Shown here piece by piece: positions 1,997-42,156 of a DNA stretch of 64,000 nt. Made by a program: the position numbers and the translations under genes. The stretch's first letter is position 1; each line of letters begins with the position of its first letter. This DNA comes from Phycisphaerae bacterium (GTDB lineage: Bacteria; Planctomycetota; Phycisphaerae; UBA1845; Fen-1342): contig JAGNKU010000019.1 of assembly GCA_017999985.1 (NCBI GenBank), positions 1 to 64,000 on the forward strand. The letters are read 5' to 3'. The notes below the pieces were generated by a model that saw only the letters and a program-made list of their open reading frames with translations, ran no database searches and was not told the DNA's origin.

Positions 1997-4315
1997 ATGC
2001 GCTTCTTTGGCCGACAGACAGCGCGACAGAAGGAAATTCGGCGCTCGCGGGCCGAGCGGCGTCAGGCGTGGTACCAGCGCCTGGGTGGCCAGGTGCACAT
2101 GGGGCCAGCGGTTTTCCTGGTCTTCTGCGCGGTCACGACGGCTTTGCTGGTGAACGCCGGCACGGACGGGCTGGGGCTGACGGTCGGGCAGAAGCTCCCG
2201 CGAGACATCACGTCGCGGGTGACATTCCGGATTGTGGACGAGGCGGCCACGGACCGCATGCGGTCGCGGGCGCGCGACAACGCCGAGGACCATTACGAGC
2301 TCGACGCGTCACTGCTACAGGACATTCGGGGGCGGTTGACGAACGCGCTGCGGATTGCGCGTGAGCAGGCGGCGGAGCCGCAGAAGCTCAAGGAGAAGGC
2401 CGAGGAAATCAAGGTTCTGTTTGACGACGCGGGCCTGGCGGAAATCCTGCGGCTGGCCGCCCTGCCGGACGCCTCCGAATACCAGCACGCGGTCGATCGG
2501 GCCGTGCGGGTGCTGCGCGGTCAGCCGCTGGCCGAGGCGAGCGACCTCGCGCGCCGACGGACCGGGCTGAACGCGATCCTGGTGGACGTCGAGCAAGCAC
2601 TCGAGCGGCCCGTGCCCAACAGCGAGCTGCTGTTCGCCAACAACCCGGAGCACGTGCTCAAGGTGGTGGACACGGTCGTGGCGGCGGCGGACTTCGCGGT
2701 GCCGCTGCGGGACACGATGCGGGCCTCGCTGCGGGAGATGCTGCGCGACCCGGCGACGAACACGCACAAGCCGCTGTATCGCTACGACACGCGGCGTTCG
2801 AACAAGGCCGCGCAGGACGCCGAGAACCGGGTGGAGACGCAGTATAACGTCTTCACGGCCGGTACGCGCCTGGCGCCGCTGGGCACGCTGACCGAATCCA
2901 CGTACGAGCTGCTCAAGGAGGAGCAGGCCCGCTATCTCGACCCGGACTGGGGCATGCAGGACGCGCAGACCGCGGAGCTGCTGCGCGGCGTGCCGCAGAT
3001 GCTGGTGCGGGAGCGCTGGGCGCGCGGGTTCGCGGCCTTCCTGCTGGTCATCGGGGTCGGCGGCGGGGTAATGCTCATTTACGGAAACCTGCCGGGCGGG
3101 GCGCAACGGCGGACGGCGTCGGCGCTGACCATGCTGGTGGTGCTGGGGCTGGCGCGGGCGACGTACGTGCAGGGGCTACCCGTGCATCTGGCGGTGGGCC
3201 TGCAAGCGTTCGCGATCGCGCTGCTGGCGATCACGTCGCGGGGCGGCCCGGTGTACGCCGCCGGGGGCGTGCTCGCGTTGATGGTCACGCTGGCGACGCG
3301 CCAGAGCGTGAGCCTGCTGATCGTGCTGATGGCGGTGACCATGGTGCTGTTTCTGGGGCTGCGCGACGTGCGGCATCGCGGCCACATCATCGGCGTGGGC
3401 GCGCTGGCGGCGCTGGTCGCGCTGGCGTTCACGCAACTGGCGGGGCTCATCGAGGGGCAGTACTTCCGGTTCGTGTTCTGGCACCAGGCCATGTGGGCGG
3501 CGCTGTCCACGCTGGCGGCCGCGTTCCTGGTCGAAGGCATTCTGCCGGCGATCGAGCGGGTGTTCGGCGTGACGACCAGCATGACGCTGCTGGAGTGGTG
3601 CGATCCGAACAAGCCGCTGTTGCGCATGCTCGCGGCCGAGTCGCCGGGGACGTACAACCACAGCCTGTTGGTGGGGACACTGGCGGACGCGGCGGCGGAG
3701 GCGATTGGGGCCGACGGCTTGCTGGCCCGCACCGGGGCGTATTACCATGACATCGGCAAGGTGAACAAGCCGGAATATTTTGTTGAGAACCAGGCGATGG
3801 GGGTCGGCAACCGGCACGAGCGGCTCTCGCCGGCGATGAGCCACCTGATCATCATCGGACACGTGAAAGACGGCATCGAGATGGCGCGCGAGTATGGACT
3901 GCCGGCCAGCCTGCACAGCTTCATCCCCGAGCACCACGGGACGTGCGTCGTCGAGTACTTCTATCACGCCGCGAGCAGGGCGCGCAAGCCGGGGGACCCG
4001 GAGATCTCCGATGAGCAGTTCCGGTATCCGGGGCCAAAGCCGCAGTCGCGCGAGACGGCGATCGTCATGCTGTGCGACGGCGTCGAGGGCGCGGTGCGGG
4101 CCATGACCGAGCCGACGCCGAACCGGATCGAGGACACGGTCGCGAAGATCATCGAGAAGCGCATGATGGACGGCCAGTTCGACGACTGCGATCTGACGTT
4201 CCGCGAACTGGAGACGATCCGCAACAGCCTGGTGAAGAGCCTGAGCAGCATCTATCACGGCCGCATCGCGTATCCGAGCACCGAGCAGAGTCCGGAGCCG
4301 CGCAGTGCCTCGTAA
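1997..4315 (+). CDS. pgpH: PgpH-type 7TM HD-domain phosphodiesterase (YqfF family)
   Basis: A 772-residue membrane protein of the 7TMR-HD family, whose characterised members (PgpH) hydrolyse cyclic di-AMP. There is one N-terminal TM near residue 35-55. A long extracytoplasmic 7TMR-HDED region follows to about residue 335, then a seven-helix membrane block (about 340-510), then a cytoplasmic HD domain. The HD residues are intact: YNHSLLVGTLAD, YYHDIGK, NRHERLSP and PEHHGT, with the final Asp in LCDGVEGA. It sits between phoH and ybeY and overlaps ybeY by 11 bases. A cyclase-like partner, the CdaA-YbbR fusion at 15997-17853, lies in the same window. The substrate is inferred from the family. 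Confidence 0.9.
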   Translation: MRFFGRQTARQKEIRRSRAERRQAWYQRLGGQVHMGPAVFLVFCAVTTALLVNAGTDGLGLTVGQKLPRDITSRVTFRIVDEAATDRMRSRARDNAEDHYELDASLLQDIRGRLTNALRIAREQAAEPQKLKEKAEEIKVLFDDAGLAEILRLAALPDASEYQHAVDRAVRVLRGQPLAEASDLARRRTGLNAILVDVEQALERPVPNSELLFANNPEHVLKVVDTVVAAADFAVPLRDTMRASLREMLRDPATNTHKPLYRYDTRRSNKAAQDAENRVETQYNVFTAGTRLAPLGTLTESTYELLKEEQARYLDPDWGMQDAQTAELLRGVPQMLVRERWARGFAAFLLVIGVGGGVMLIYGNLPGGAQRRTASALTMLVVLGLARATYVQGLPVHLAVGLQAFAIALLAITSRGGPVYAAGGVLALMVTLATRQSVSLLIVLMAVTMVLFLGLRDVRHRGHIIGVGALAALVALAFTQLAGLIEGQYFRFVFWHQAMWAALSTLAAAFLVEGILPAIERVFGVTTSMTLLEWCDPNKPLLRMLAAESPGTYNHSLLVGTLADAAAEAIGADGLLARTGAYYHDIGKVNKPEYFVENQAMGVGNRHERLSPAMSHLIIIGHVKDGIEMAREYGLPASLHSFIPEHHGTCVVEYFYHAASRARKPGDPEISDEQFRYPGPKPQSRETAIVMLCDGVEGAVRAMTEPTPNRIEDTVAKIIEKRMMDGQFDDCDLTFRELETIRNSLVKSLSSIYHGRIAYPSTEQSPEPRSAS

Positions 4316-4838
4316 ACGTCCGACGCGTCGGAGTTCCACCCTGTCGGCCGCGCGCGGCACAGGCCCCGCGGCGCGCGGCGTGGGCATCGAAGTGGTCTGG
4401 CGACCGCGGCGGGCGTGGGGCGCCGGGCCGCTGCTGCGGCGCGTCGCGCACTATGCCGTCACGGCGGAGGGGTTTCGTTCCGGGCAATTGACCATCGTCG
4501 TGGTCGGGTCACGGACGATGGCCGCGCTGCACCGGCGCTTCGCCGGCGCGGGCGGGACGACGGACGTGCTGACGTTTGACTATGGCGCGGAGGCGGGGCC
4601 GGGGCGCCTGGACGCCGAGGTGTATGTTTGTGCGGATGTCGCGCAGCAGCGCGCGGCCCGGCGTGGGGGCACGCTCGCGGCGGCGCGGGCAGAGCTGGCG
4701 CTGTACGTTGTGCACGGCATTTTGCACCTGGCCGGCTACGACGATCACACGGCGCGCGATTTCGAGCGCATGCACGCGCGCGAGGATCAGTTGCTCGAAC
4801 GGCTGGGGCTGGGCCCCGTGTTCGGGCTGCTTCGCTGA
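4305..4838 (+). CDS. ybeY: Endoribonuclease YbeY (rRNA maturation factor)
   Basis: A 177-residue UPF0054/YbeY protein, a zinc-dependent endoribonuclease involved in 16S rRNA 3' maturation and ribosome quality control. The signature HGILHLAGYDDH supplies the three metal-binding histidines, and TDVLTFDY is the preceding conserved block. The first ~25 residues are Arg/Pro-rich and could be a slightly early start; a later start inside the pgpH overlap region is possible. It is the last gene of the phoH-pgpH-ybeY cluster and ends 9 bases from the convergent lipoprotein gene. Confidence 0.92.
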   Translation: MPRKRPTRRSSTLSAARGTGPAARGVGIEVVWRPRRAWGAGPLLRRVAHYAVTAEGFRSGQLTIVVVGSRTMAALHRRFAGAGGTTDVLTFDYGAEAGPGRLDAEVYVCADVAQQRAARRGGTLAAARAELALYVVHGILHLAGYDDHTARDFERMHAREDQLLERLGLGPVFGLLR

Positions 4839-4847
4839 CGGTCGCCG

Positions 4848-5381
4848 TCACTTTCCCGGGGCCGTGGTCGGCGCTGCGTCCGGGGGCGGTTGTTCCAGCG
4901 CTTCCTGGTATTCCTGCAGGGCATTATCGACGCCCTTGCGCATCTCGCGCCAGGCTTCGTCGCTGGCGCCCTTCAGCCGCTCGAGTGTTTGCCGCGCGGC
5001 TTCGGCGCGGGCGGTCCACTCGTCGAGCTGCTTCTGCAGCGCCGGGCGGACGTCTTCGGCGGCGGACTCGAGCCTCTTGCGCAGCTCGTTGACGCGCTCG
5101 TTCATGCGCTCCGACTCGCGCTCGACCTCGCGCTGATACAGCTCGCGCGCCTGGCGGAGCAGCGCCTTCGCCGCCGCGGCCCCCTCGCTCGCCCGGCGTT
5201 CCGCTTCCGCGCCCAGCCGCTTAAGTTCCTCCAGCGTCGTGCGCTCTTCGGCGACGATGGGCGCCGTCGCGGGCTGCGACGTGCTGCCCGCGGGCGGTCC
5301 GCCAGGCGGTGCCGAACGCTCACACGCCACGGCGACCAGCAGCCCCAATCCCAGCGTGCCCAAGCTTGCGCTGCGTGTCAT
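4848..5381 (-). CDS. Coiled-coil lipoprotein, unknown function
   Basis: 177 residues. A signal peptide ends in a lipobox-like LVAVAC with Cys20 as the likely lipidation site. A Pro/Gly/Ser linker follows, then about 115 residues rich in Glu, Arg, Ala and Leu that read as one long amphipathic coiled coil resembling apolipoprotein-like helical repeats. The C-terminus is Pro/Thr-rich. Its start overlaps the stop of the upstream methyltransferase gene by an ATGA, so the two are probably translated together. I do not recognise a named family. A periplasmic or membrane-surface scaffold is the most that can be inferred. Confidence 0.7.
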   Translation of the reverse strand: MTRSASLGTLGLGLLVAVACERSAPPGGPPAGSTSQPATAPIVAEERTTLEELKRLGAEAERRASEGAAAAKALLRQARELYQREVERESERMNERVNELRKRLESAAEDVRPALQKQLDEWTARAEAARQTLERLKGASDEAWREMRKGVDNALQEYQEALEQPPPDAAPTTAPGK

Positions 5382-6178
5382 CGGTCTGCCCTTTCATCCA
5401 CCATGTTCACTGGTCCCGGCTTCACGCCCCGATACAACGCCACACCGCCGAAGTTCATCCGCTGCACGGCGACGGTTTGGAAACCCACGTCCGCGATGCG
5501 CCCGGCCATGACGCGCGTGTTCGCGAACGTGCGGATCGAACGCGGCAGGTAGCGATACGCACCCGTGCGGTCGCGACTGATGATCGCCGCCAGCGCCGGT
5601 ACCACGCGGTCACAGTATAGCTGATACGCCCAGCACAGCAGGGCGTTCTCGGGCATCGCGAATTCCAGGATCAGCACGCGTGCCCCGGGCCGGGCGACGC
5701 GGTGCATTTCGCGCAGCCCTTCCGCCAGATCGCCAAAGTTGCGCACGCCGAAAGCGCAGGTGATGACGTCCACGGACGCGTCCGCCAGCGGCAGGCGCAC
5801 GGCATCGGCGCGGATAAGGCGGATGGGGACGGGCGTGCCGTCGAAGTGCGCGGCCGCCAGCATGCCGGCGGAGAAATCGACGCCGAGCAGCAGGCGTGGC
5901 CGCGGCGTGTGGACGGCGAACGCGCGCAGCATGTCGCCGGTGCCGCAGCAGATATCGAGGACGACGTCGGTAGGCCGCACATCGGCGGCGGCCACGGTGC
6001 GCCGGCGCCAGGCGGTGTCGCGCCCGAACGTGGCAACCGTGTTGACACGCTCGTATGTCGGCGCGATGGCATCGAACATGGCCTCGACGCGCACGGCCTT
6101 GTCGGGCTGAGCATGCGGATCGCGCAGGGCGTCGGAATCCCAGGCTGGGCGGGTCGAAGCTGGCAGCATGGGCGGCAT
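5378..6178 (-). CDS. ubiE: UbiE/MenG-like quinone-biosynthesis methyltransferase
   Basis: A 266-residue class I SAM-dependent methyltransferase of the UbiE/COQ5 family, which methylates the demethylmenaquinone or ubiquinone precursor ring. The visible family blocks are the early signature KAVRVEAMFDAIAPTYERVN, the SAM motif VLDICCGTGDML, and VDVITCAFGVRNFGD, followed by a post-motif region with LEFAMPE. The start is set at MPPMLP (6178). The longer ORF runs into the divergent acetoacetyl-CoA synthetase gene and has no family match there. The ATGA overlap with the lipoprotein gene downstream indicates an operon. Whether the product is menaquinone or ubiquinone cannot be told from this gene. 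Confidence 0.88.
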   Translation of the reverse strand: MPPMLPASTRPAWDSDALRDPHAQPDKAVRVEAMFDAIAPTYERVNTVATFGRDTAWRRRTVAAADVRPTDVVLDICCGTGDMLRAFAVHTPRPRLLLGVDFSAGMLAAAHFDGTPVPIRLIRADAVRLPLADASVDVITCAFGVRNFGDLAEGLREMHRVARPGARVLILEFAMPENALLCWAYQLYCDRVVPALAAIISRDRTGAYRYLPRSIRTFANTRVMAGRIADVGFQTVAVQRMNFGGVALYRGVKPGPVNMVDERADR

Positions 6179-11694: not shown

Positions 11695-14600
11695 CTACAT
11701 GCCGGCGGCGTCTCGGCGCCGCCGTCCGGGCATTCTCGCCGTCAGGAGGGCGCCGAGCAACCACGTCGCGCCGAACCCGGCGCCAGCGGCGAGGGCGCTG
11801 TTGCGCACGCGACCGGGCGCACGGGTCGCGATGACCGGCTCATCGCTGGTGACGAGCTCCGGCCCGGTACCCTGCGGCTGCGCGTCCACGAGTTCCTGCT
11901 CAAGCTCGCGGAGACGCGCGGCGTGCCACTCGATTTCCGACGCGCGGCGCTGGGCCACGGCTTCCGCGTCGATGCGCGCCCGCGTGGCGTCATCCAGGTT
12001 GCGCAGTTGCCGCAGCGTGATGACGAGGCTGGCCACAACCTCTTCGCGCCGGCGCTCCAACTGGCGCACGGCCTCGCGCGCCGCCTGCACGCGGGCCGCA
12101 TGCGTCTCGCCCGCGGCGCGGTCCGCCTCCATCTGGAGCTGCTGCTGCAAGGTGTCGCGCCGGCTGGACAAGCGGGCGCGCAGACCGCGCAGCTTGCGGT
12201 CACGCGCGTCCAGCTCGAAGTTGCCGCTTACCGCGATCTTCGCCGCGGCGGCGGTGAACGCGTCCACGGCGGATTTCAGTCCGGACTGCTCGTCGCGCAG
12301 CACGGCCGCGACCACGACTTCGCGCGTGCCGCCCTGCGACTGATCGACAGTCTCGATCTGCGCGCCGATCCGCTGCAGGAGCGTGCCGGCGGTCTCCGCC
12401 GCCTGGCGAGCCGCGTCGGCGACAAGGTTTTGCTGGCTCACGAGCTGCACAACGTCCGCGCTGACATCCAGCCCCTGGACCGTGTCGGTCCAGTTCTGCC
12501 ACTGCCCGACGAATGGCGCGAGGTTCGCCTGGGCCTCGTCGACGGCCGTCGCGCACGCTTCGAGCACCGCGGCGATCTGCGGCGGCGGATCCAGGCTGCG
12601 TTGTTCCGCGAGCGTGGCCGCGAAGTCAGCCAGCGTCTTCTGCAACACCTTGGCGGGATCGGTCAACAGCAGCATCGCGACGCCGAGTTCCCTGCGATAC
12701 TCCAGCGCCACCGCCTGGAATTCCGCGCGGTCCTCACGGTGGATGGTGTCGTCGGCCAGGGCCCGCTCGACCGCCGTCGGCTGCACTTCGCCGCGCGGCA
12801 CCTCGGTAGCGACCAGCACGGCCAGCGCAGCCCGCTGCTCGTCCAGCGCGGTGGTCAGCGCCCCGAGCTCGGTCTCCAGGTCATCGGCGGCGGTGATGAG
12901 CGGCGTGCGCGAGGTCAGCGCCGGCGCCGTGGTGGTCGCGGCCTGCGCGGCCGACTCCTGGGCGTGCAGTTCCTGCAGGGCGCTTTCGAGCTGAGCATGT
13001 CGCCGGAGCAACGCCTGGTATTCGGCCGGGAGCGGGCCGTCGCCAGCGCCGCTGGTGACCCACACGGTGTGCGCGGCGACCGCGGCCCGCAGCAGTTGCT
13101 CCGCTTCGTCCGCGCGGGCGGCGGTCACGCTGAGCCAGAGCACTGGCTCGTCCGGCGCGGCTGTCACCACGACGCGCGCGGCGGCGCAGGCGGTGCGCCA
13201 CGCCGCGGCCAGCTCGGGGGCTGCCGCGGCCCCGTCCAGCAAACGTGGATCGCACAACTGCCGCGCGTGACGCGCGGTCACGTCAACGGACGCGGCGGCA
13301 CTGTCGATCCGCAATCGAACGGTCGCGTGTGACTGGGCCGGATGGGTGCTGAACCACGCCAGCGCGCACAGCGCCGCAACACCGGCCGCCACGACGGTAC
13401 GCCGTGCCAGCGACAGGCGCGGGGCCGCGTGGTGCGCGACCGCCGGCCCGGCCTCGACGGGCGTCGCCAGCGCCGCTCGAGCGGTTTCCAGGTCGCGCTG
13501 CGCGGCTTCCAGCTCCCGGCGCTCGTCGGCCAGTCGCGCGCGGTCGTCTTCCAGCGCCTGCGTGGCCACCTCCAGTTGCTGCCACTCACCGGCCACGCGG
13601 GCGCGTTCCGTCTCCAGTTCCGCGGTGGCGGCCGCGCTGCGACTGCGTTCGTCGTCGAGGCGGGCGTACTGGGCGGCGAGAGCCTGCTCGGCCTGCTGCA
13701 GGCGCTCGCGTTGCCGCGCGAGGTCAGCGCGGTCTGCGGCGAGCGCTTCCGCTGCGCGGCCCAACTCCGCCTGGTGCCGGTCCAGTTCACCGGCCCGGGC
13801 CGTCAGCGCGGCGCGCTCCTCGTTCACGCTCGCGAGCGCGCGGGCCAACTCGTCCCGCTCCTGTTGCAGGCGCGCGGAGTGGTCGGTTCGCGCGCCGCGT
13901 TCGGCCTCGAAGCGGGCGGACGCGGCGGCGAGCTCGTCGCGCTGCCGTTCGAGTTCCGCGGCGCGGGCCGCGAGCGCGCTGCGCGCCTGCGCCAGGCGGG
14001 TGGCATCATCCGCCAGCTCGCCGCGCCGGCGCTCCACTTCCGCGGCCGCGGACTCCTCCGCGCACCGTCGCCGTTCGAGCGCGGCACGCTCCTCGTCCAG
14101 GCCCCGCGCGGCCGCGTCGAGCTGGGCCGCACGCGTGTCAAGTTCGGCGGCCCGGCGCGTCAGGTCGTCTCTGACGCGCGCCAGGCTCGCGGTCTGGTCG
14201 GCCAGCGCTTCCCGCTGTTGTTCCAGCGCCGCGGCGGCGGACTCGCCGGCCTGGAGCCGTCGTGCCAGCGCCGCGCGTTCCCCATCCAGACTCTGCTCGA
14301 CCGTCGCAAGCTGCGCGGCCCGCGCGTCGAGCTCGGCAGCCCGGCGCGCCAGGTCGGCGTGCGTCTGCGCGAGGCGCGTCGTTTCTTCCGCCAGCTCCCG
14401 CCGCTGTTGCGCCAGCGTGTCGGCCGCGGACTCGCCGGCGCGCAGACGTTGCTCCAGCGCCGTGCGTTCCCGCAGCAGGGCCTGCTCGGCCGCGGCGAGC
14501 TGCGCGGTCCGCGCGTCGAGCTCAACGGCCCGACTCTCCAGCTCATCGCGTTGCCGGGCCACCACTGCGTCCACCTGGTCGCGCTGCTGCCGCAGCGTGC

Positions 14601-15102
14601 GCTCGTGCTGGCGGATGACCGCGATGCGGCGCTTGAGGACCTGGTGCTGGCGGCGTTGCCAGGCCCGTAGGTGCTCAGCCTGCTGGCGGGAACGCTCGCT
14701 GCGGAAGACCAGGTCGCTGCGCTGTTGCTCCAGCTCGAGTTGTCGCGCCCGGAGTTGGTCGGCGATCTCGTTGAGCCGCGCCCGCTTGGCGGCCAGTTCG
14801 ACGGCCTTGGCGTTCAGCTCGGCGATCTGCTCGGCCACACGGTGTTGCGTCTGCTCAAACTCGGCGGCCGCCGCCCGATGCGCCGCCTGCTTCAGCTCGC
14901 GATATTGCCGGCCGAAATCCTGCTCGCGGCGGCGCAGCTCCAGCTCGCGGGTGGAGATCTGCGCCAACCCCTCGCGGATGTCGCGGATGATGCTGTTGAT
15001 ACCGTCGCCGGCCGGGGTGGGCGCGGTGGGCGGCACCTGTGGCGCAGGCGCAGCGGGGGTCGCGCGACGGGTGTCGGACGAATCTGGGGGCGGGTTTGCC
15101 AT
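11695..15102 (-). CDS. Giant coiled-coil membrane protein with Wzz/GumC-like topology
   Basis: 1135 residues. After a Pro-rich N-terminus, about residues 45-540 form an almost uninterrupted coiled coil. It includes three near-identical 63-residue (nine-heptad) units at bases 13966-14532. A transmembrane helix follows (about 568-585, VVAAGVAALCALAWF), then a ~510-residue extracytoplasmic part with further coiled coils, then a second TM helix (about 1100-1118) and a short basic tail. Two TMs flanking a coiled-coil periplasmic domain recalls chain-length/export proteins of the Wzz/GumC class, but the long cytoplasmic coiled coil is unlike them and no kinase domain is present. The start at MANPPPDSS is chosen over an upstream Met preceded by unstructured sequence. 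Confidence 0.8.
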   Translation of the reverse strand: MANPPPDSSDTRRATPAAPAPQVPPTAPTPAGDGINSIIRDIREGLAQISTRELELRRREQDFGRQYRELKQAAHRAAAAEFEQTQHRVAEQIAELNAKAVELAAKRARLNEIADQLRARQLELEQQRSDLVFRSERSRQQAEHLRAWQRRQHQVLKRRIAVIRQHERTLRQQRDQVDAVVARQRDELESRAVELDARTAQLAAAEQALLRERTALEQRLRAGESAADTLAQQRRELAEETTRLAQTHADLARRAAELDARAAQLATVEQSLDGERAALARRLQAGESAAAALEQQREALADQTASLARVRDDLTRRAAELDTRAAQLDAAARGLDEERAALERRRCAEESAAAEVERRRGELADDATRLAQARSALAARAAELERQRDELAAASARFEAERGARTDHSARLQQERDELARALASVNEERAALTARAGELDRHQAELGRAAEALAADRADLARQRERLQQAEQALAAQYARLDDERSRSAAATAELETERARVAGEWQQLEVATQALEDDRARLADERRELEAAQRDLETARAALATPVEAGPAVAHHAAPRLSLARRTVVAAGVAALCALAWFSTHPAQSHATVRLRIDSAAASVDVTARHARQLCDPRLLDGAAAAPELAAAWRTACAAARVVVTAAPDEPVLWLSVTAARADEAEQLLRAAVAAHTVWVTSGAGDGPLPAEYQALLRRHAQLESALQELHAQESAAQAATTTAPALTSRTPLITAADDLETELGALTTALDEQRAALAVLVATEVPRGEVQPTAVERALADDTIHREDRAEFQAVALEYRRELGVAMLLLTDPAKVLQKTLADFAATLAEQRSLDPPPQIAAVLEACATAVDEAQANLAPFVGQWQNWTDTVQGLDVSADVVQLVSQQNLVADAARQAAETAGTLLQRIGAQIETVDQSQGGTREVVVAAVLRDEQSGLKSAVDAFTAAAAKIAVSGNFELDARDRKLRGLRARLSSRRDTLQQQLQMEADRAAGETHAARVQAAREAVRQLERRREEVVASLVITLRQLRNLDDATRARIDAEAVAQRRASEIEWHAARLRELEQELVDAQPQGTGPELVTSDEPVIATRAPGRVRNSALAAGAGFGATWLLGALLTARMPGRRRRDAAGM
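13966..14532 (-). repeat. Tandem 189-bp repeat inside the coiled-coil gene (three copies)
   Basis: Three consecutive 189-bp units encode RAxELDxRAAQL...GESAA...LAR blocks. Landmarks on the plus strand recur exactly 189 bases apart, for example the GTC of the Asp codon at 14137, 14326 and 14515. Less conserved half-copies follow downstream. Each unit is 63 residues, exactly nine heptads, so copy-number change keeps the coiled-coil register. Confidence 0.9.
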
Positions 15103-15256
15103 CAATGCACTCAAACGCGCCAGCGCCCCCCGGTGGGAGCACCGTATGCCGGAACCGCGCACAGCGGTGCCGGGCCCCTATTGTAATAACGGCTGCCGAG
15201 CGCGCGCGGCCACAGTATTAGGATTTTCGGGCCGCAGGCACTGCGCCCCCGCCGGT

Positions 15257-15997
15257 TCAGAGCAAGCGACTGAGCTGCGTGACGGCCGCGCGCAGGTCTT
15301 TCGGCCAAGGCGCCGCCAGTGTCAGCGGTTGTCCGGTCGCCGGGTGCTCAAAGGTGATGCGGGCAGCGTGCAGGGTCAGCCGGGCGATCAACGGGTGCTC
15401 CGGGCGGCGCCGGTTGGGCCGATAGTCTATCTTGTAGTGCGACAGCAGGAGGGACTGGCCACCGCCGTAGAGCGGATCGACGGCCAGGGGGTGCCCGATG
15501 GCCGCGAGATGCGCGCGGATCTGATGCAGGCGGCCCGTGACCGGCTGGCATTCGAGCAGCGTGTGCCCGGCCAGGCGCTGGACGACGCGATAGCGCGTCA
15601 AGGCGTGCTTGCCGGCGCCGCTCGAGACGCGCACGCGGTTGCGCCGGCGGTCGAAGGCGAGCGGCAGATCGATTTCGCCGTCAGCGGGAACGACGCCGCC
15701 GACGAGCGCGAGGTAGGCCTTGTGCACGCGGCGCTCGACAAACTGCCGCACCAGGTGGCGCTGGGCCTCGAGGGTGCGCGCGTAGAGGAGCACGCCGCTG
15801 GCGTCCTGGTCGAGGCGGTGCACGATGCGCACGGCGGGATTGTCCTGCAGTTCGGGCCGGGCCCGGAGCACGTCGACCGCGCACGGCTCGGGGCCGCGAC
15901 CCGGAGCGGCCAGCATGCGCGGCGGCTTGTCGATGGCGACTAATTCGTGGTCGACATGGAGCAAGGTCAGAGCGCGGGTGGGCGGGCGCGCCGACAT
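15257..15997 (-). CDS. RluA-family pseudouridine synthase
   Basis: A 246-residue RNA pseudouridine synthase of the RluA/RluC/RluD family, which isomerises uridine in rRNA or tRNA. The catalytic block is IVHRLDQDASGVLLYAR with the nucleophilic Asp. The conserved VHKAYLALV, LLECQPVTGRLHQIRAHL and HPLAVDPLYGG segments are all present. There is no N-terminal S4 domain, so it is a short form, and the target nucleotide cannot be assigned. The ATG at 15997 overlaps the stop of the upstream cyclase-YbbR gene (TGATG), so they form one transcription unit. Confidence 0.9.
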   Translation of the reverse strand: MSARPPTRALTLLHVDHELVAIDKPPRMLAAPGRGPEPCAVDVLRARPELQDNPAVRIVHRLDQDASGVLLYARTLEAQRHLVRQFVERRVHKAYLALVGGVVPADGEIDLPLAFDRRRNRVRVSSGAGKHALTRYRVVQRLAGHTLLECQPVTGRLHQIRAHLAAIGHPLAVDPLYGGGQSLLLSHYKIDYRPNRRRPEHPLIARLTLHAARITFEHPATGQPLTLAAPWPKDLRAAVTQLSRLL

Positions 15998-17853
15998 CAA
16001 GGCCCCCGTCCGATCCGCGGGACGAGCGTCACCTGTACCGAGCGGCTGCTGACGACGGACACGCCTTTGGGCGTCAGGAAAACGACGGGCAGCGTGCGAA
16101 ACTGCTGTTCAGGCGTCTCGCTGGGCGGCGGCAACAGGTCGGCCGTGACCAGCACGATGGCCCGGATGGTGAGTGTGCCGAGCGACTGGAAGACCGCCTC
16201 GTCGCCCTGGACCTCGACGTCGGTGCGCCATTCGTTCAGGTCCGTCTTGAGAACGTCGTAGTGCTCCGCGACGTCCGGGCTCACAAAGAGGCCGACGACG
16301 ACGTTGCGCACCAGCTTGGGCTGCGCGACGACACGGATCGTGACGTCCACCTTGTCCGGCGTGAACACCGCGACGCCTTTGAGGCCGACCGGCGGCACGA
16401 GCGACACGCCGCTAAAGGTGCGCACGTCGCCGGGCGCAAGGCCCTCGAGCTGGCGACCGAGAACCGCGTACACGGCGCCCTGGCCCTCCAGTGTCTTGAG
16501 ATCATCGCGGCGCACATCGACGTCGACGCGTGGCGGCGTGGCGCGTTCGAGGGCCACGCGGACGGCGCTGCCTTCGACCTTCACGTCGACCGGCAGCGAC
16601 AGGGAGGCGCGCGCGTGGACGCTGAACGTCAGCGTCGACAACCCCACGTTCGTGACGGCCAGCCCACGTTCGCGGACCTGGCGCGAACTCTCGACGATCG
16701 TGCGGATGTCCTCGCGGGTGTTGACCGTGTACGGGGCGGGGCGCGGCTGGTAGGCCTTCGGCAGCACGTAGGTCACGCCGAGCGGCTGCTTCAGCGTTGC
16801 GATGCGCAAACGGTCGATGGCCCGGCCCGGGCCGGTGAACGTGGCGTCGAAGATCGTCGGCGGACCGTTCACCTCGACCTCGGTGGCGGGGTCCTCACTG
16901 CGCACGCGGAGCTCGACCTGGCACGTGTCGGAGGCAAAGGTAGCCTGATCGGCGACGTACCAGATGACCGCGGTGAGCGGCACCACGACCAGCAGGCGGC
17001 GGGCCACGCGCCATGCATCGGAGGTCCAAGTGCGGGTGCGCGGGATGACGGACGCGCCCGTGCGGCCGGCCAGCCGGTTGTGGAGTTCCTCGGAAAGGTC
17101 ATCCAGCGACAGGTAGCGCGTCAGCTTGCCGTTGTCCGCCAGCGAGATCACGCCGGTCTCCTCCGACACGACCAGCACGAGCGCATCAGTCTCGTAGCTC
17201 ATGCCAATCGCGGCGAGATGGCGGCTGCCGAGCGCGACGTCGACCTCGTCGCTCTCGGCGGACGGGAACTGGCAGTTCGCCGCGACAACGCGGGTGTCGC
17301 GGATGATGACGCCCAGGTCGTGCAAGGGGGAGCCGGGGTAGAAGATCGTGTTAAGCAGGTTGGCGGAGACCTCGGCGCGGATGAGCGTGCCGTTCTCGGC
17401 CCAGCCGGTGAGATCGACGCTGCGCTGGATCGCGATCACGGCACCATAGCGATTGCGGGACAGGTAGCCGGCCGACTTGACCAGAGCGGCGATCACGTGC
17501 GACTGCGGGGCGCCGCTGCGGCGCAGGCGCACGTCGCCGACGCGAATCACCGCGCGGCGCAGTTCGGGCTGAAACACCACCAGTGCGATGAACGCGAGGC
17601 CGTACAGAATGTAGCTGTACAGTAGGTCCAGCCGGACCCACTCGAACTGGGCGGTGAGGATACGGACGACGAGCGTGGTGCCGACGAGGATGATGAGCAC
17701 GCCGCGCAGCGGGCGCGTGCCGCGCGTGCCCTGGAGCACGCCCGCGCACCAGTTCACGCACAGGCCGATCAGCAGCACCTCGACCAGCACGGCGGGCAGG
17801 TCGTAGGCGCCGCTGTTCAGGCGGTAGTACAGGCTGCGCAGCATGTCGCTCAT
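15997..17853 (-). CDS. cdaA: CdaA-like diadenylate cyclase domain fused to YbbR region; altered catalytic motifs
   Basis: 618 residues. Three N-terminal TM helices (about 20-95) and a DisA_N/DAC domain (about 100-265) match the CdaA architecture, which makes cyclic di-AMP from two ATP. A further TM (about 286-302) and a ~300-residue extracytoplasmic part resembling YbbR/CdaR domains follow in the same chain; these are normally separate proteins. The usual PLHDGA motif reads PLHDLG (residues 176-181) and the usual RHR reads RHL (211-213), while GSRHLAAIGMS..TDAL and VVSEETGVIS are otherwise conserved. The cyclase may therefore be altered or inactive. It is coupled to the pseudouridine synthase gene downstream. 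Confidence 0.85.
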   Translation of the reverse strand: MSDMLRSLYYRLNSGAYDLPAVLVEVLLIGLCVNWCAGVLQGTRGTRPLRGVLIILVGTTLVVRILTAQFEWVRLDLLYSYILYGLAFIALVVFQPELRRAVIRVGDVRLRRSGAPQSHVIAALVKSAGYLSRNRYGAVIAIQRSVDLTGWAENGTLIRAEVSANLLNTIFYPGSPLHDLGVIIRDTRVVAANCQFPSAESDEVDVALGSRHLAAIGMSYETDALVLVVSEETGVISLADNGKLTRYLSLDDLSEELHNRLAGRTGASVIPRTRTWTSDAWRVARRLLVVVPLTAVIWYVADQATFASDTCQVELRVRSEDPATEVEVNGPPTIFDATFTGPGRAIDRLRIATLKQPLGVTYVLPKAYQPRPAPYTVNTREDIRTIVESSRQVRERGLAVTNVGLSTLTFSVHARASLSLPVDVKVEGSAVRVALERATPPRVDVDVRRDDLKTLEGQGAVYAVLGRQLEGLAPGDVRTFSGVSLVPPVGLKGVAVFTPDKVDVTIRVVAQPKLVRNVVVGLFVSPDVAEHYDVLKTDLNEWRTDVEVQGDEAVFQSLGTLTIRAIVLVTADLLPPPSETPEQQFRTLPVVFLTPKGVSVVSSRSVQVTLVPRIGRGP

Positions 17854-41325: not shown

Positions 41326-41826
41326 GGCGGAGTGGGCCAGGCGACCGCTGTCGGGGCGACCCGGCAGAGGAAAGTCCGAACTGGACAGGGCACGGTGATG
41401 GCTAACAGCCACCGGGTGCGAGCCCAGGGAAAGTGCCACAGAAAAGATACCGCCGGCGGGGCGGTGGCTTCGCCACCGCCGTGACAGGGTCGAATGTAAC
41501 AAGGTGACAATGTGTGCGTCCCTCGGCTTGTTGGATGGTCCTCGGATTGCGGACGGGCTCACTCTGTTACTCTGTCACGTTGTTACCTTATCACCTCCCC
41601 GCCGGTAAGGGTGAAATGGTGCGGTAAGAGCGCACCGCGCGGCCGGTGACGGCCGTGGCAGGGTAAACCCCACCGCCAGCAAGCCCAAATAGGGGGCGAT
41701 GAGCCGGCCCGGCTCGTTACCAGCCCCGGGTAGGGCGCTTGAGCCCGTCGGTAACGGCGGGCCTAGAGGAATGGTCGCCATCCGCCTCAAGCGGAAACAG
41801 AATTCGGCTTACTGGCCCACTCCGCC
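41326..41826 (+). ncRNA. rnpB: RNase P RNA (class A)
   Basis: The catalytic RNA of ribonuclease P, which cleaves tRNA 5' leaders. The ends pair as a perfect 15-bp P1 stem (GGCGGAGTGGGCCAG, 41326-41340, with its complement at 41812-41826). The conserved core elements GAGGAAAGTCC, ACAGAAAAGATACCGCC, GGTAAGGGTGAAA, GGTAAGAGCGCACCG, GCAAGCCCAAATAGGGGG, GGGTAGG..GCTTGAG and CCTAGAGGAATG are all present in order. At 501 nt it is longer than the usual 350-420. The excess lies between the two sides of P12, at about 41462-41596, where an extra hairpin and a palindromic repeat are inserted. Confidence 0.95.
41481..41594. repeat. Palindromic insert in the P12 arm of RNase P RNA, 8-bp-period arms
   Basis: The left arm (41481-41514) reads GTGACAGG, GTCGAAT, GTAACAAG, GTGACAAT, GTG. 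The right arm (41561-41594) is, in reverse complement, GTGATAAG, GTAACAAC, GTGACAGA, GTAACAGA, GT. Arms of ~8-bp quasi-repeats separated by ~46 bases can pair and extend P12. The helix base itself is CGGCGGGG (41453-41460) with its complement at 41597-41604. Confidence 0.85.
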
Positions 41827-42156
41827 GAATTTCCCGCCCGCCGCTGTCAGAATCGCACTCCCGGAGGGATAGGCACAGTTGGAGACCTGGCCAACTGGCG
41901 CTCAGAACCACGGGTGACACTTCGATCCGCCAACTGAGCCCCAAGTGCCGAGCGTGCGGAAGCCGCGAAAGCACGGCCGCGCGCCGCTGGCCAGCGGAAT
42001 TCTAATTGAAACGCCAGGGTGCCGATCGGTATTTTGAAGTATTGGTCAGAACGCGAATCGCACGGGACCGCGTTCGGAAGGAGTGGGAAAGCTCAATTAC
42101 GGGTAGGCCGGTGGTCGCCCGCGCAGGTCGCCACTGGCGCTGCTGGAGGGTTCGCG
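41827..42156. other. Intergenic region downstream of rnpB
   Basis: 330 bases with no supported gene. TTGAAA (42006-42011) followed after 18 bases by TATTTT (42030-42035) is a possible promoter for the repeat-protein gene that starts at 42157. No clear rnpB terminator is seen. Confidence 0.4.

Follow-up and report, generated by a model that had tools for sequence, protein, structure and literature searches.

The DGA and RHR motifs are used to call proteins with a DAC domain active or dead, and the question raised by this locus is whether a CdaA-like protein in which both motifs are altered can still make c-di-AMP. The gene lies in the window analyzed here, a stretch of 64,000 nt from contig JAGNKU010000019.1 of a Phycisphaerae bacterium (GCA_017999985.1, a draft genome of 31 contigs). 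The initial annotation left two options for its product, namely, a protein that binds or senses c-di-AMP or ATP and a variant cyclase. From the evidence presented below, it is very probable that this is a CdaA-type diadenylate cyclase which is active and anchored in the membrane, its active site being remodelled and YbbR (CdaR) being fused at its C-terminus. The domain architecture, the conservation and the history of the motifs, and the presence of genes for reading and degrading c-di-AMP are observed directly in the genomes; catalysis is what we infer from them.

Architecture of the fusion protein

The gene and the parts of its product are located as follows:

15997..17853, minus strand: CdaA-YbbR fusion protein, 618 aa, ATG start (open reading frame; DAC domain by Pfam, YbbR fold by AlphaFold2 and PDB comparison)
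17524..17853, minus strand: predicted N-terminal helical membrane region of the CdaA type, residues 1-110 (TIGR00159 match from residue 23; helices of the model)
17122..17475, minus strand: DAC domain, residues 127-244 (PF02457; model compared with 8c4o)
17311..17322, minus strand: H-D-L-G, residues 178-181, replacing H-D-G-A (alignment with solved CdaA chains)
17215..17229, minus strand: G-S-R-H-L, residues 209-213, replacing G-T-R-H-R (alignment with solved CdaA chains)
17155..17166, minus strand: S-E-E-T, residues 230-233, metal and phosphate motif, intact (87-row alignment)
16942..17028, minus strand: linking helix between the two halves, residues 276-304, proposed fourth membrane helix (AlphaFold2 helix 3-31 of the C-terminal model, from which the topology is conjectured)
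16000..17034, minus strand: YbbR-fold region, residues 274-618, proposed to be extracytoplasmic (AlphaFold2 model; matches to 4qdy, 5hqh and 3lyw)

The structure model of the N-terminal region contains helices at residues 19-41, 47-70 and 73-93, which are predicted to form the membrane region. The DAC domain is recognized by the Pfam profile PF02457 with a score of 115 bits (curated cut-off 27), and its model superimposes on the CdaA-ATP complex 8c4o with a Z of 27.7 and an rmsd of 1.2 over 151 residues, which indicates a DAC fold. The NCBIfam equivalog profile for CdaA, TIGR00159 (Listeria, Bacillus, Leptospira), matches residues 23-260 with 174.4 bits, below its cut-off of 188.8.

A Pfam search up to E 1 detects no match to PF07949 (YbbR) in the C-terminal half, and the Pfam YbbR search over the relatives set likewise gave matches in 0 of 61 genomes, compared to 4 of the 14 control genomes. 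The AlphaFold2 model of this half, built from an alignment of 60 sequences, has a pLDDT of 94, and its best PDB match is the YbbR protein 4qdy (Foldseek E 1.1e-7). VIA-align comparison of the model yields Z 8.9 and rmsd 2.6 over 93 residues for 5hqh, Z 8.8 and rmsd 7.3 over 186 residues for 4qdy, and Z 8.8 and rmsd 2.2 over 84 residues for 3lyw; after the seven YbbR-type chains come mainly ribosomal chains (L25/TL5 type) with Z below 5, taken to reflect a shared arrangement. As judged from the model, the C-terminal half is a YbbR fold. In addition, in relatives with an unfused cdaA, a profile of the C-terminal part of the family matches a separate gene immediately downstream of it (E-values down to 6.5e-55). 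The fold matches and the match to this downstream gene therefore suggest that the fusion joins a pair of neighboring genes. The region shares with CdaR/YbbR proteins the fold, the preceding helix and, in unfused relatives, the position directly after cdaA, but differs from them in the lack of a PF07949 sequence match and in being part of the cyclase chain. Similarly, the cyclase and YbbR are encoded together in the cdaA-cdaR(-glmM) operons of Firmicutes and the dacA-ybbR operon of Chlamydia, whereas in the window they form one polypeptide, and the next gene downstream encodes a pseudouridine synthase.

The claim of the initial annotation that the cyclase and its regulator form a single polypeptide thus holds: the 618-aa open reading frame contains the membrane region, the DAC domain and the YbbR-fold region. 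The draft state of the genome could raise the suspicion that two genes were wrongly joined, but the probability of such an artefact is negligible. The C-terminal match is in the same open frame in 27 of 27 loci of the window's family, from 26 genomes, and the fused proteins form one clade with a support of 100, so that independent genomes already refute it.

The two halves differ in the dN/dS values obtained for the window protein and three RHL relatives, which are 0.06, 0.10 and 0.08 for the DAC domain and 0.24, 0.73 and 0.37 for the C-terminal part (a simple counting method applied to five chosen pairs, in one of which dS reaches 1.27, near saturation). Strong purifying selection on the DAC domain after the change to RHL would fit an enzyme, although a nucleotide-binding sensor would show the same.

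Near the cyclase gene, at 11695-15162 on the minus strand, the window encodes a 1155-aa protein in which long coiled-coil-like repeats are seen by eye. In another locus (L051), a protein with a start that by eye resembles that of the 1155-aa protein is encoded right after the fused gene.

Active-site motifs and their history

In an ungapped alignment with solved CdaA chains, HDLG (178-181) of the window protein is opposite HDGA and GSRHL (209-213) is opposite GTRHR. Thus, the initial annotation placed the altered motifs correctly: Asp alone is kept from DGA, and the first Arg and the His are kept from RHR. The same motifs recur in relatives, and accordingly their change is not due to chance. 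Among the 87 aligned relatives, D179, G209, R211, H212, S230 and E231 are invariant (87/87), E232 is kept in 85 of the 87 rows, and Leu at position 213 is found in 18 of the 87; near copies from the window's family (L043 and L050) are omitted from this alignment. Hence the protein shares with CdaA/DacA the N-terminal helices followed by DAC, the fold, and the HD, RH and SEE residues, but differs in the replacement of the DGA Gly by Leu, of the DGA Ala by Gly and of the second RHR Arg by Leu, in having Gln in place of the Tyr of the adenine lid, in the equivalog score below the cut-off, and in the fused regulator.

Published mutants show which of these positions matter. In Leptospira CdaA, D172A (the DGA Asp) and R203A (the first RHR Arg) are reported to abolish activity (PMC12974146), and in Chlamydia, a mutant of the Asp, D164N, is described as having no catalytic activity (PMC12422730). 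The residues whose loss kills activity are present in the window protein as D179 and R211. In M. tuberculosis DacA, G73A (the DGA Gly) is reported to retain activity, whereas replacement of RHR by AAA, in which all three residues are altered, abolishes it (PMC3328451). In the literature as far as its text was available, no published test was found of the second RHR Arg alone or of Gly replaced by Leu. Ten ATP-site residues are listed for Listeria CdaA, and the list contains neither the DGA Gly and Ala nor the second RHR Arg (PMC7288161). Of the listed side chains, those of Asp, Arg, His, Ser and Glu are retained in the window protein; the substitutions are Thr to Ser210, Leu of the GALI motif to Val139, and Leu188 to Phe196, Leu188 being described in the same report as acting through its main chain (PMC7288161). 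The position of Listeria Tyr187, a stacking residue that is described as crucial for activity (PMC10167629), is Gln195 in the window protein; the six rows of HDGA type in the 87-row alignment lack the Tyr as well, all of them having Leu. Altogether, positions 180, 181, 195, 196 and 210 are all unlike Firmicute CdaA; the alignment places them around the sites for the base and the phosphates, where they may modulate the enzyme.

A link between two of these positions was found in a set of 268 rows, merged to 237 distinct ones with scores above 100. Gly181 occurs only alongside an aromatic residue at position 196 (126/126 distinct motif rows), an association with a Fisher p of 3e-45 when kinship is ignored; on the tree, however, the supported branches provide no more than 3 independent pairs (sign test p 0.25). 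With so few independent events, this covariation is best regarded as a lead.

The motif change extends far beyond the window. In the window's own family, HDLG is present in 27 of 27 loci read, with RHL in 20 and RHR in 7; these loci cover 26 of the 27 genomes, and the match in the remaining one (G017) is a short fragment. In the rest of the order, HD[LM]G is combined with RHR in 26/26 loci read, from a sample of 34 genomes of which 3 have no match and 5 have matches left unread. All 31 distinct loci read from other orders of the class have HD[LM]A or HD[LM]G, these being mostly the best-scoring matches and hence no random sample. Conversely, Gly is at the second DGA position in 62/62 loci read from the rest of the phylum. 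The suggestion to ask among planctomycete DAC proteins whether the change is lineage-wide is thereby answered for the Gly position: its replacement by Leu or Met is class-wide, with 84 of 84 CdaA-type loci of the class against 0 of 62 elsewhere in the phylum.

In a pattern scan of named genomes, at least 120 loci matched, and 113 of the 120 listed held DAC; loci without DAC (L146, L159, L194, L203, L204, L222 and L224) were taken as chance matches and dropped. Among the matches listed, the DAC-bearing ones are mostly Phycisphaerae or Planctomycetota records, and these matches also include HDMA with GTRHR in Chloroflexota (L151, L162, L201, L241, L246) and HDLA with GTRHR in Armatimonadota (L186, L196). 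The D[LM]A CdaA proteins of these two far lineages share with the window protein the change of the DGA Gly to Leu or Met but differ in that Ala at the third position and GTRHR are kept. RHL is not unique to the window's family either: among the matches listed, it is also found in L207 and L214.

In a tree of the 87 proteins, made with the motif columns removed, there is one change at position 180 (support 95), one fusion (support 100) and one change from RHR to RHL within the fused clade (support 97); this is a quick tree, with 32 of its 84 inner branches open. In a FastTree of the 237 rows, position 213 changes 5 times and position 180 changes 4 times, versus once each in the narrower tree. 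The 87-protein tree thus points to a single origin of RHL, later than the change of Gly to Leu or Met and inside one clade of the fusion proteins. The class contains another fusion, L302, with the motifs DMG/RHR.

Two simple accounts of the motif change were considered and rejected. A shift of DGA by one residue does not explain DLG: position 180 goes from Gly to Leu or Met, and both Ala and Gly are found at position 181. Nor is fusion the cause of the change, given that unfused members of the order have D[LM]G in 26/26 loci and that the fused L302 is DMG/RHR.

Some other planctomycete proteins (L079, L105-L110, L113-L115) resemble the window protein in that DAC is followed by a hydrophobic stretch and another 387-843 residues, but differ in keeping Gly at the second DGA position. 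YbbR was not found in these extensions by Pfam (8 of the 10 tested) or with the profile of the window's family; possibly, they are separate YbbR fusions.

Genes of the c-di-AMP pathway and the case for activity

As the initial annotation stated, a PgpH-type phosphodiesterase is encoded in the same window, not adjacent to the fusion gene:

1997..4315, plus strand: PgpH-type 7TM-HD phosphodiesterase (PF07697, PF07698 and PF01966 above cut-off: 7TMR-HDED, 7TM and HD domains)

PgpH-type genes are present in 59 of the 61 genomes of the relatives set. The c-di-AMP riboswitch RF00379 scores above cut-off in 14 of these genomes (cmscan confirmed it in all 12 stretches examined) and is absent or undetected in the other 47. 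The riboswitch of the window's own genome (G000:C18:98964-99121, 59.9 bits) is located 103 bases before an open frame for a TrkH potassium transporter (E 7.2e-45). Eleven of the 14 genomes with the riboswitch (G001, G011, G014, G015, G019, G020, G022, G032, G036, G037 and G043) have exactly one PF02457 match, read as D[LM]G, together with a PgpH-type gene. Five of the eleven are DLG/RHL (G001, G014, G015, G020 and G022, with a completeness of 95, 97, 99, 89 and 93 percent, respectively). The remaining three genomes with the riboswitch are the window's own (G000), which has a second DAC, G055, in which the motif is unread, and G060, with a weak second DAC match.

The second DAC of the window's genome (G000:C13:112743-114095; positions 4744-6096 of locus L064) combines a DACNV sensor domain (PF21751, E 8.2e-25) with a divergent DAC that carries DGA and RHR. 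Its only relative among the 61 genomes is in G060, and a weak one; no such DACNV-DAC protein was found in the eleven genomes with a single DAC and the riboswitch. Where c-di-AMP is read and degraded and a single DAC is detectable, that DAC is most simply the source of c-di-AMP. In any one genome, this reasoning could fail because of a very divergent, undetected DAC or gaps in the assembly, but it would be harder to overturn in all eleven at once. For the window's own genome, the argument for activity is weaker because the second, divergent DAC is present there.

Some genomes of the order encode DacZ-like DAC proteins (L060 and L061, with similar matches of 66-86 bits and a DacZ_P domain in L061); in the two that were read, DGA is kept and RHR is replaced by RHA or RHQ.

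The active-site residues kept in all 87 rows speak for activity; against it are the inactivity of the M. tuberculosis AAA mutant, the TIGR00159 score, the replacement of Tyr187 by Gln195, the 47 genomes in which the riboswitch is absent or undetected, and the DGA/RHR protein of the same genome, which could supply c-di-AMP. The alteration of both signature motifs, the score below the equivalog cut-off and that second DAC are also what would be expected of a DAC domain that bound ATP or c-di-AMP but did not link one ATP to another, with the YbbR part reporting its state; c-di-AMP in this genome would then come from the DACNV-DAC protein. Such a sensor appears improbable, however: outside the window's genome, that second DAC is found in one of the 61 genomes, and weakly, whereas DLG/RHL alone coexists with the riboswitch and a PgpH-type gene in five, and the site shows no variation in its Asp, Arg, His, Ser and Glu. 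Loss of function was therefore rejected as the main reading, given that the altered positions have no mutational support as essential and that DLG/RHL is the sole detectable DAC in those five genomes. An inactive sensor is possible but less likely than an active variant. Of the two options in the initial annotation, the variant cyclase is favored, considering the lineage-wide change, the retention of Asp and the first Arg in 87/87 rows and the presence of these motifs in the sole detectable DAC of several genomes with the riboswitch, and the sensor that makes no product is not. That annotation also regarded c-di-AMP without a second canonical cyclase as an argument against inactivity; in the relatives, a canonical second cyclase is indeed absent while the reading machinery is present, which bears on c-di-AMP indirectly, from genes alone.

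It is highly improbable that the protein is instead a cyclase of changed chemistry, with another product, another metal or strong feedback through a remodelled base pocket (L180, G181, Q195, F196). The differences from Firmicute CdaA at positions 180, 181, 195, 196 and 210 and the occurrence of Gly181 exclusively with an aromatic residue at 196 would be compatible with such a change, but the riboswitch family in the same genomes is the one for c-di-AMP, and the link between 181 and 196 comes from the few independent events noted above.

Proposed mechanism and implications

For an active cyclase, the following mechanism can be proposed. The N-terminal helices would hold the DAC domain at the cytoplasmic side of the membrane, and the further helix would take the chain across the membrane to the outer YbbR-fold region. 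For CdaA, two DAC domains are reported to have to meet head to head (PMC8573169); here, two ATP-loaded DAC domains would meet in this manner to yield c-di-AMP. D179 would act on the ribose 3' end, S210, R211, H212 and S230 would hold the phosphates, and E232 would hold the metal, whereas the DGA Gly and Ala and the second RHR Arg, which are outside the listed ATP contacts, would have been replaced stepwise in evolution. In Chlamydia, YbbR is reported as required to activate DacA, and the balance of both proteins is said to matter (PMC12422730). The fused YbbR region would fix a 1:1 ratio and probably relays an envelope signal to the cyclase, the mode of action of the outer domain being something we infer. 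The PgpH-type enzyme would then degrade the c-di-AMP produced, and the riboswitch that precedes trkH would sense it.

If the protein is active, the DGA/RHR rule misses a bacterial class plus some Chloroflexota and Armatimonadota, and HD, RH and SEE alone should be retained as diagnostic. The protein is a lineage-wide variant of a known enzyme, with the prospect that a motif treated as diagnostic may be dispensable across a class. A more detailed scenario, which we consider possible but doubtful, is that the class dropped the DGA Gly, and one family also the second RHR Arg, while keeping c-di-AMP signalling; that the base pocket was rebuilt stepwise (Leu or Met at 180, Gly181 with Phe196, Gln195, Ser210), so that the use of metal, the rate or the feedback changed; and that the YbbR fusion is a single-chain transducer of envelope signals. 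The fusion also offers a convenient single-chain system in which to study the control of the cyclase by YbbR. Among the papers searched, none was found on c-di-AMP in Phycisphaerae, and therefore the pathway seems little studied in this class.

Several further observations concern the genes behind the riboswitch and other RNAs. In four genomes of the family (G015, G020, G022 and G011; loci L292, L295, L297 and L299), the riboswitch is directly ahead of Band_7/SPFH genes, to our knowledge an unusual target for a c-di-AMP riboswitch. In two other loci (L300 and L301), it precedes genes of the amino acid permease family, which we assume might be KimA-like potassium transporters. Two nearby matches to the Acido-Lenti-1 RNA, on opposite strands, are found at positions 6224-6440 of L292. 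The window itself encodes a bacterial RNase P class A RNA at 41329-41827 on the plus strand (300 bits).
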